Assembly (NCBI GenBank): GCA_018816555.1
Contig: JAHIVT010000044.1
Location: 1-58,095 of the forward strand
Origin: Pseudomonadota bacterium
GTDB taxonomy: Bacteria > Desulfobacterota > Desulfobulbia > Desulfobulbales > SURF-16
DNA length: 58,095 bases
Direction of reading: 5' to 3'
Under the pieces are notes generated by a model that was not told the DNA's origin, ran no database searches, and saw only the letters and a list, made by a program, of their open reading frames with translations. Positions 43,021-44,625 of the stretch are shown in pieces. The position numbers and the translations under genes are program-made. Position 1 is the first letter of the stretch. The number at the start of each line of letters is the position of its first letter.

Positions 43021-43056
43021 TTGAATATCCGTTGTTTTCCGTTTACATATGTAAAC
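43021..43056 (+). promoter_or_regulatory. Promoter candidate with a 16-bp palindrome, upstream of the riboswitch
   Basis: TTGAAT (43021-43026), a 17-base spacer and TACATA (43044-43049) form a sigma-70-like promoter. The -10 box lies inside the perfect palindrome GTTTACATATGTAAAC (43041-43056), a possible operator. The same palindrome followed by AGTTTTTT could alternatively be a terminator hairpin for rng. Confidence 0.45.
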
Positions 43057-43083
43057 AGTTTTTTGCTTTAAAACTTGGAACAC

Positions 43084-43168
43084 ATAACAAGATAAAGCCA
43101 AACCCCGCGTAAGTTGGGGACGGAAAACCGCGGATCTTCCAGTCAAGATTGCCGGGTTGCCTTGTTAT
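43084..43168 (+). promoter_or_regulatory. GEMM-I type (c-di-GMP/cGAMP family) riboswitch aptamer
   Basis: P1 is ATAACAAG (43084-43091) with CTTGTTAT (43161-43168), 8 perfect pairs. P2 (43103-43118) has exactly the length of the Vibrio Vc2 aptamer, is capped by a GTAA tetraloop and is flanked by CAAACC and GGGACG. P3 joins ACCGCGG-ATCTT to AAGAT-TG-CCGGGT. The core A corresponding to A47 and the C corresponding to C92 are kept. By hand alignment, the position of G20 reads C (43098), C45 reads G (43123) and G49 reads A. It precedes a multiheme cytochrome gene, as in Geobacter. Confidence 0.8.
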
Positions 43169-43190
43169 CGCGAGTGACCCGGCTTTTTTT
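43151..43190 (+). terminator. Riboswitch-controlled intrinsic terminator
   Basis: GCCGGGT (43151-43157) pairs with ACCCGGC (43177-43183), followed by seven T. The left arm is also the 3' side of aptamer P3, and the loop contains the 3' strand of P1, so aptamer folding and termination exclude each other. This predicts that ligand turns expression on. Confidence 0.85.
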
Positions 43191-43223
43191 ATGGCCAGCT
43201 CCTGACAAAAAAGAGGATCATAG

Positions 43224-43538
43224 ATGATGACGCGATTGGGGCTCACGGAAAGCGGCGCCGTTATGAAAAAAGCGTTGCAGAAAATTCCCTTGGTCGAGGA
43301 GTGGACCCCGAATATCTCTCCCTTTGCCCTTCCTCTCACCCTATTTTCCGCCCGCTGCATGGACCAACGACTCCCCTTCCAAGGAAAAAACCGAAATTTT
43401 GCCGCCGCAGTAAAAACCGATGAGGCAGATTCACCCATGCAGCCAAATGAAACGATCAATTTGACAAAAAAAGCAACAAGTACTGAGAAAAATGAAGATT
43501 ACACCGGAGGCGCATATGATAAACATTTCCCATACTAA
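43224..43538 (+). CDS. Possible 104-aa ORF between riboswitch and cytochrome
   Basis: The ATG at 43224 has GAGGATC at good spacing. The product (MMTRLGLTESGAVMKKALQK and on) has no membrane segment and a low-complexity polar second half. It overlaps the first 23 bases of the cytochrome gene in another frame, so it might couple translation. The composition is not strongly protein-like, and I recognise no family. Confidence 0.3.
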   Translation: MMTRLGLTESGAVMKKALQKIPLVEEWTPNISPFALPLTLFSARCMDQRLPFQGKNRNFAAAVKTDEADSPMQPNETINLTKKATSTEKNEDYTGGAYDKHFPY

Positions 43539-44625
43539 GAGGAGGATTCTCCTCTATTCGATTCTCACCCTTTCCTTGAGCCTATCCGCCGGCAATGCTG
43601 CAGCAAAAGTGAGCGGTGTCTGCGGTAACTGCCACACCATGCATAACTCCCAGGACGGCGTACCTGCCCTGCATAGCGGAGATGGCGCAGGCTGGGCGGA
43701 CGACGGTACTTTCAACCAAGGGGAGGCCTCGGAGACGCCTGCTAGCTATCTGCTCATCTCCGATTGTGTCGGCTGCCACTCTTCCACGTCCGCAGACAAA
43801 ACGATTATACAGTTAGGAGAGAATCGGATTCCCATTGTCTTTAATACAGTGCAATACCCGAGCAAGGCCTTGGCCGGCGGTAATTTCTACAATGTTTCCC
43901 GAGGTGTTGACTATGATGGTTACGGCCACAATGTCTACGGCATCTCGGAACACGACAGCAAACTGACAACCGCGCCCGGCAATAACAGGTGCGGCAATGC
44001 CAACTCCTGCCACAATACCCTTGCCGTGGCGCCCTCTGCCCAAAACGATTACCGGGGCAGCTGCCAGGGTTGCCATTACAATGTCTATCACCACAAGGAC
44101 AGTAACGCGTACCGTTTCCTCAATTCCCATGATGAACAGTTTGGCGCTTACGTAGAAGGCGTTGAGCATGCCTCCTGGGAATACCCCGACGACACCACAT
44201 CAACTGAACATAATTTCTACAAGGGGGTCGACAGGAATGATATCGGACAAGGCGGCACCCTCGAATTGAAGCAGACACAGAGCATTTCCAGCTACTGCGC
44301 AGGCTGTCACAATACATTTCACAGTATTAACGGCGTAGGCATTGACACATGGCTGCGCCATCCGACAGAAATCGTTCTGCCCGAGACAGGGGAATACGTC
44401 CAGTACAATCCGGTGACCAACTATGAGCTTCAGTCGCCGGTGGCCTGGATTGATCCGGCCACTCCCCAGAGGGACGAGGCCATTGTCATGTGCCTTTCCT
44501 GCCACCGGGTGCATGGTTCAGAGTACCCAGACATCCTGCGCTGGGATTACAGCAAAATGATCGCCAACGACGCAGGCGATGAAGCAGGAAACGGCTGCTT
44601 CGTCTGCCACGCAACAAAAGATTGA
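43516..44625 (+). CDS. Periplasmic or secreted multiheme c-type cytochrome under riboswitch control
   Basis: The 369-residue protein begins at the ATG at 43516, which has GGAGG 6 bases upstream; an ATG at 43492 is in frame but lacks a site. A signal peptide (ILLYSILTLSLSLSAGNAAA) is followed by six CXXCH heme sites (CGNCH, CVGCH, CQGCH, CAGCH, CLSCH, CFVCH) and one odd CGNANSCH. The closing CLSCHRVHGSEY is typical of electron-transfer cytochromes. The riboswitch upstream ties its expression to a cyclic dinucleotide. No OmcS/OmcZ identity can be claimed. A stem-loop follows the stop. Confidence 0.9.
   Translation: MINISHTKRRILLYSILTLSLSLSAGNAAAKVSGVCGNCHTMHNSQDGVPALHSGDGAGWADDGTFNQGEASETPASYLLISDCVGCHSSTSADKTIIQLGENRIPIVFNTVQYPSKALAGGNFYNVSRGVDYDGYGHNVYGISEHDSKLTTAPGNNRCGNANSCHNTLAVAPSAQNDYRGSCQGCHYNVYHHKDSNAYRFLNSHDEQFGAYVEGVEHASWEYPDDTTSTEHNFYKGVDRNDIGQGGTLELKQTQSISSYCAGCHNTFHSINGVGIDTWLRHPTEIVLPETGEYVQYNPVTNYELQSPVAWIDPATPQRDEAIVMCLSCHRVHGSEYPDILRWDYSKMIANDAGDEAGNGCFVCHATKD

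Follow-up and report, generated by a model that had tools for sequence, protein, structure and literature searches.

Riboswitches of the GEMM-Ib type are already known to place cytochrome genes of Geobacter under the control of cGAMP, as described in PMC6456294 and PMC8835794. The pilM switch of Geobacter metallireducens is, according to PMC9262584, an ON switch, the terminator of which sequesters the ligand-pairing residue C75. In Geobacter, cGAMP controls iron reduction and c-di-GMP matters for growth on electrodes, and cGAMP-making (Hypr) GGDEF enzymes have a serine at a residue that is otherwise aspartate (PMC6456294); PMC12285248 raises the possibility that GEMM-I switches of G. metallireducens respond to c-di-GMP as well. 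Among the open-access papers listed in literature searches, none dealt with GEMM switches in Desulfobulbales, nor did any, outside Geobacter, describe OmcS preceded by a c-di-GMP riboswitch.

The locus described here lies on a 58,095-nucleotide contig (the window) from a relative of the Desulfobulbales. Positions 43084–43190 (+) are a genuine GEMM-I riboswitch element. The original prediction had interpreted them as a GEMM-I aptamer with an overlapping terminator, acting as an ON switch on a multiheme cytochrome gene; this holds up, the ON logic as judged from the anatomy. It had also implied a parallel with the cGAMP switches of Geobacter, which does not. As judged from the sequence, the element is likely to be a transcriptional ON switch, in which binding of c-di-GMP would raise the production of an exported heptaheme cytochrome of the OmcS superfamily.

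The GEMM-I aptamer and its pocket

The covariance model of RF03167 (c-di-GMP-I-GGC) matched residues 43088–43165 (+) with 64.0 bits (E = 7.7e-13 in the 58-kb window), and that of RF01051 (c-di-GMP-I, GEMM-I) gave 57.5 bits. Both scores exceed the curated Rfam cut-offs (59 and 35 bits, respectively), RF03167 being the top-scoring family; the covariance search that had been proposed as a check of the GEMM-type assignment thus came out above threshold. The RNA contains the fold of RF01051, composed of P1, P2 with a GNRA loop, and P3. The 5′ strand of P1 (residues 43084–43091) forms eight perfect pairs with residues 43161–43168, as predicted; it is kept in the relative G004, and the part of it that belongs to the aptamer is also kept in G001. 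P2 (residues 43103–43119), defined by sequence, alignment and folding, carries the expected GNRA loop as a GUAA tetraloop at 43109–43112. P3 (residues 43126–43158), supported by the fold and by covariation, pairs residues 43126–43129 with 43155–43158, and residues 43131–43138 with 43145–43149 and 43152–43154. The joins CAAACC (43099–43104) and GGGACG (43117–43122) are both found where they had been placed.

In an alignment of 36 aptamers, double changes occur in 15 of 17 consensus pairs, with P1 lying outside the consensus pairs. The pair 21–46 shows a clean compensatory flip in this alignment, being CG in 18 sequences and GC in the other 18. The minimum free energy of the aptamer alone is only modestly better than that of shuffled sequences (z = -1.59, with 12 of 200 shuffles as good; z = -1.91 for the whole 112 nt); it is therefore identified by the covariance models and its relatives rather than by its stability.

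The ligand pocket was read from an alignment of 67 aptamers, made up of the full sets of this genome (15) and of G001 (20), 5 of the 6 of G004, and 27 from 24 other genomes (1–2 each); the searches counted 144 GEMM-I matches in total. In the window the pocket consists of the ligand-specifying G20 (43097), the pairs C21–G46 (43098 and 43123) and C22–G45 (43099 and 43122), A47 (43124) and C92 (43160), the expected ligand-pairing residue. A47 and C92 are present in all 67 aptamers. Base 20 is G in 60 and A in 7, and the pair 21–46 is C–G in 40 and G–C in 27. We take G20, A47 and C92 to be the canonical c-di-GMP pocket in GEMM-I numbering, and A at position 20 to be the mark of a cGAMP-type (GEMM-Ib) riboswitch.

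A terminator that excludes the aptamer fold

An intrinsic terminator (residues 43151–43190) overlaps P3, C92 and P1. Its stem pairs residues 43151–43160 with 43174–43183, and residues 43162–43165 with 43170–43173, and is followed by seven T residues (43184–43190). The left arm had been expected to double as part of P3, and GCCGGGT at 43151–43157 indeed serves in both structures; the stem is longer than first given and takes in C43160, which pairs with G43174. The stretch folds at -20.6 kcal/mol (z = -5.3), an energy equalled by none of 200 shuffles. A scan with sigma-70 and terminator consensus rules recovered neither a promoter nor a terminator at the switch; for the latter, the bulge and length of the hairpin presumably lie beyond the scan rule.

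The transcript was folded at successive 3′ ends in 3-nt steps. The fold containing P1 is the minimum free energy structure for 3′ ends from 43165 to 43180 (-21.4 to -25.8 kcal/mol), and the terminator fold from 43183 onward (-32.3, later -38.1 kcal/mol). Because the terminator consumes the 3′ strand of P3, C92 and part of P1, the two folds are mutually exclusive; this sharing of strands supports the predicted ON switch with an overlapping terminator.

The same overlap was sought in 40 aptamers from three genomes of the genus (15, 20 and 5, with one of the six of G004 left out). Under a criterion that sets no energy limit, 31 of the 40 have a hairpin that starts at or before C92, has this residue in its stem and leads into T residues; of these, three start only 1–2 nt before C92 and two are weak (-4.9 and -7.2 kcal/mol). 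When the downstream 70 nt were shuffled, 70 of 400 trials passed.

In the proposed mechanism, the nascent RNA would refold in the absence of ligand as the polymerase reaches approximately position 43183, drawing these same segments of P3 and P1, together with C92, into the strong terminator, and transcription would end at the T run 43184–43190. If c-di-GMP is bound between G20 (43097) and C92 (43160), P1 and P3 would be locked, the terminator blocked, and the cytochrome gene at 43516 transcribed. High c-di-GMP would then lead to more of the exported cytochrome.

The probable target, a multiheme cytochrome

The gene at 43516–44625 (+) encodes a c-type cytochrome of 369 residues with a signal peptide, identified from its motifs and a profile search as a remote relative of OmcS. 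A GGAGG ribosome site before the ATG at 43516 is conserved in G001 and G004. The product contains seven haem motifs, in agreement with the multiheme cytochrome claimed downstream of the switch, of which six are CXXCH and the third is CX5CH; the signal peptide, read by eye, lacks a lipobox. As a single sequence, the protein matched only a doubled-CXXCH domain in Pfam, and nothing significant in the PDB (best E = 0.54). A profile built from 27 relatives matched the filament (nanowire) cytochrome OmcS (6ef8 and 6nef) over most of the chain (79.9 bits, E = 1.7e-21), the next matches being at E = 0.017 and worse and including unrelated proteins. By its sequence, the cytochrome is thus a remotely homologous member of the OmcS superfamily, an assignment that does not imply filament formation; it may serve in extracellular electron transfer. 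Its AlphaFold model is poor (mean pLDDT 49.7, pTM 0.36).

Upstream region and leader

Upstream of the aptamer, the motif GCGACAATTTGCC (residues 43005–43017) is a possible activator site. With up to two changes, it is shared by the upstream regions of 9 of the 15 GEMM-I aptamers of the genome (the window, L002–L005, L007, L008, L013 and L014), where it stands before the riboswitch promoters, and it is perhaps the site of a regulator sharing the regulon. Genome-wide, GCGACAANTTNCC was counted 21 times as a pattern, and its reverse 10 times. The motif GCGACAATTTGCC also stands before a paralogue of the cytochrome (G000:C22:31241 and 31646), a locus at which no aptamer was found.

Sequence and leader comparison point to a -35-like box, TTTACA (43042–43047), with a weak -10 element (CTTTAA/TTTAAA) 18–19 nt after it, which would place the transcription start near 43080; the sigma-70 consensus scan had no match at this box. 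The box lies within GTTTACATATGTAAAC (43041–43056), a perfect 16-bp palindrome that covers the likely -35 element and is conserved in G004. Over 16 nt, the upstream region of G004 could pair with J2/3–P3 of the aptamer, and the window keeps 14 Watson–Crick pairs of these 16 (by eye). A role of this region as an anti-aptamer was considered and dismissed, since the likely transcription start lies downstream of it.

A 325-nt leader (43191–43515), delimited from the sequence and from relatives, separates the terminator from the cytochrome gene. An open frame of 104 codons with a Shine–Dalgarno-like start (43224–43538) begins within it. Open frames that begin at the same start span 73 residues in G001 and 78 in G004, but their sequences diverge and the frames shift. 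The frame was rejected as the regulated gene because it is not kept in relatives, and a real 104-residue protein is unlikely; a short leader peptide is possible, and the start and initial codons show partial conservation in both relatives.

Conservation in relatives

Orthologous switches precede the orthologous cytochrome in G001 (90% amino acid identity) and in G004 (79%), the latter being the MAG Desulfurivibrio sp. SURF_16, of the same genus as the window genome. The aptamers are 98% (G001) and 93% (G004) identical to that of the window, and the leader segment 43224–43490 is 69–79% and 39–69% identical, respectively. In the congener G002 the terminator is kept, the aptamer has decayed (21 bits) and its core is altered.

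Among the best 80 of 492 relatives of the cytochrome in named genomes, several of them without upstream sequence, a strong upstream aptamer was found at three loci, and one more has the weak copy of G002. The three are the SURF_16 orthologue; a locus in a Meg22_46 MAG, in which four consecutive multiheme genes lie behind one aptamer; and a locus in a Desulfobacterales MAG, in which two multiheme genes have one aptamer each. The association between aptamer and cytochrome recurs and is not general, and these counts, with the decayed copy in G002, show that the cytochrome family can do without riboswitch control.

Other GEMM-I loci of the genome and its relatives

The aptamers at L003, L007 and L008 lie before genes for exported proteins, the ends of which resemble PEP-CTERM by eye, and the cytochrome looks like one target within an apparent cell-surface regulon. 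A G20 aptamer lies directly before a GGDEF gene at L011 (G000:C144:3616), where c-di-GMP may regulate its own synthesis. At L005 (residues 1501–1758, G000:C147), a group II intron domain (RF01999, 126 bits) lies 65 nt downstream of a GEMM-I switch with its terminator; the intron was perhaps inserted behind the riboswitch terminator. Two- and threefold tandem arrays of GEMM-I aptamers occur at G003:C478:2436-2632, G014:C78:5817-6298 and G014:C219:1213-1630.

Messenger enzymes

The draft genome that holds the window (97% complete, 4% contamination) contains 32 GGDEF matches, 28 of which are clearly readable at the Hypr position: 27 have Asp, one has Asn, and none has the Hypr serine. The remaining matches are three degenerate domains and one fragment without the site. 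No match to a SMODS synthase was found in the draft genome.

The read-out was validated in genomes in which the serine was found. A Geobacteraceae MAG (G058) has 15 GGDEF matches, 11 of them readable, with a single GS motif (L322), the best PDB match of which is 6d9m, the Hypr domain of G. metallireducens and itself GS. Malonomonas rubra has 46 GGDEF matches in 44 loci or stretches; the motif was read in 41 and is GS in two (L362 and L363), which again match 6d9m best (E = 6.9e-51 and 3.9e-40). G058, intended as a positive control for A20, gave no GEMM-I match.

Base 20 and the presence of Hypr enzymes do not always go together. The window genome itself holds two A20 aptamers (L001, 76.9 bits; L014, 40 bits) with no Hypr serine seen. 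In G021 (84% complete), which has two A20 aptamers before OmcS genes, no Hypr serine was found in 28 readable of 32 matches, and none was found among the 30 of 80 matches inspected in G002, G012 and G035, genomes that likewise carry A20 aptamers.

Ligand and alternative readings

The ligand of the window riboswitch is probably c-di-GMP rather than cGAMP: it is the ligand that best explains the combination of G20, a genome in which no Hypr serine was seen, and a host related to the Desulfobulbales. The same three points undo the implied parallel with cGAMP switches, the host not being Geobacter. An ON switch of identical build that responds to 3′,3′-cGAMP would suit the gene context, which resembles that of the Geobacter switches before cytochrome genes (PMC6456294), and the A20 aptamers L001 and L014 show that such RNAs occur in this genome; with G rather than A at 43097, no serine in the 28 readable GGDEF domains of 32 and no SMODS match, we regard this as improbable. 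Position 20 alone does not set GEMM-I specificity: single changes in the lower part of P2, cited in PMC9262584, affect both affinity and selectivity, and it is there that the lineage of the window has the inverted pair C21–G46. The best Rfam match could also be taken at face value, the aptamer then being a c-di-GMP-I-GGC variant with altered ligand specificity. RF03167 is the best-scoring family not only here (64.0 bits, cut-off 59) but for 9 of the 15 aptamers of the genome, RF01051 being best for the other six. The naming base of that family, however, which in our own reading of the model consensus is a G at the place of A47, is an A in the window RNA (43124), as in all 67 aptamers, and the RF03167 score may perhaps stem from the short P3 common to such RNAs; there is little probability in this reading.

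Equally slight is the chance that the switch is decaying, with a real terminator and with ligand control weak or lost. The orthologous site of G002 is in just such a state, a 21-bit remnant with its terminator kept and its core altered, and no aptamer was seen at 76 of the 80 best cytochrome-relative loci (of 492, some without upstream sequence). In the window, G001 and G004, however, core, pocket and terminator are intact and are better conserved than the leader downstream of them. We therefore retain the c-di-GMP-responsive ON switch as the preferred reading.

OmcS homologues and base 20 across the order

A further member of the 15 aptamers in the genome, L012 (G000:C35:14788), lies 26 nt before a gene for a true OmcS homologue (PDB 6ef8, E = 3.7e-126). 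Counting this genome, 58 genomes of the order were covered, and 9 of them contain homologues of this protein (E <= 1e-30), 17 genes in all (L231–L247). In each of the nine genomes a GEMM-I aptamer lies 26–44 nt before an OmcS homologue, giving 10 aptamers for 17 genes; five of the seven genes without an aptamer of their own are later genes of the same clusters, and those in G016:C17 and G002:C335 have no aptamer. Base 20 is G in eight of the 10 aptamers and A in both of those of G021; A47 was read by eye from the sequences in seven rows. These aptamers leave little room for a terminator, are followed by a GGAGG ribosome site and have CTCC or CCCC at the 5′ end of P1, features that suggest translational control as the likely mode. 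In Malonomonas rubra (Desulfuromonadales), the aptamer (L311) before an OmcS homologue (6ef8, E = 1.3e-46) has A20, and this genome combines it with the two Hypr-type GGDEF proteins.

Tentatively, and with the balance tilted slightly against it, OmcS-type cytochromes (here the true OmcS homologues together with remote relatives such as the window gene) may be c-di-GMP-ON in Desulfobulbales and cGAMP-ON in Desulfuromonadales, the ligand being switched by base 20 and tracking the Hypr GGDEF enzymes. Control of cytochromes by cGAMP and GEMM-Ib in Geobacter is known already; it is the change of ligand before OmcS-type genes that is worth testing. Should Desulfobulbales indeed place this class of cytochrome under c-di-GMP, lineages would differ in the messenger chosen for extracellular electron transfer, and a single riboswitch base before OmcS would constitute a natural experiment on the evolution of ligand specificity.

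Comparison with known systems

The window riboswitch shares with the c-di-GMP-I family (RF01051) its sequence, three-stem fold, GNRA loop, the bases G20, A47 and C92, and its place before a gene for an exported protein. It differs from that family in its short P3 and in the pair adjacent to the pocket, which is C21–G46 rather than the G21–C46 seen in 27 of the 67 aptamers. With c-di-GMP-I-GGC (RF03167) it shares the top score and a short P3 with CCGGG, and differs in having A, not G, at position 47; the Rfam label thus draws in RNAs that lack its naming base. The cGAMP (GEMM-Ib) switches of Geobacter, such as that before pilM in G. metallireducens, have the same ON layout of mutually exclusive aptamer and terminator, a terminator that takes up the ligand-pairing C, and cytochromes among their targets, whereas the window has G20 in place of A20 and no Hypr serine was seen in its genome. 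In comparison with OmcS of Geobacter sulfurreducens, which has six haem motifs, the window cytochrome has seven, and it was found by a family profile but missed by a single-sequence search.
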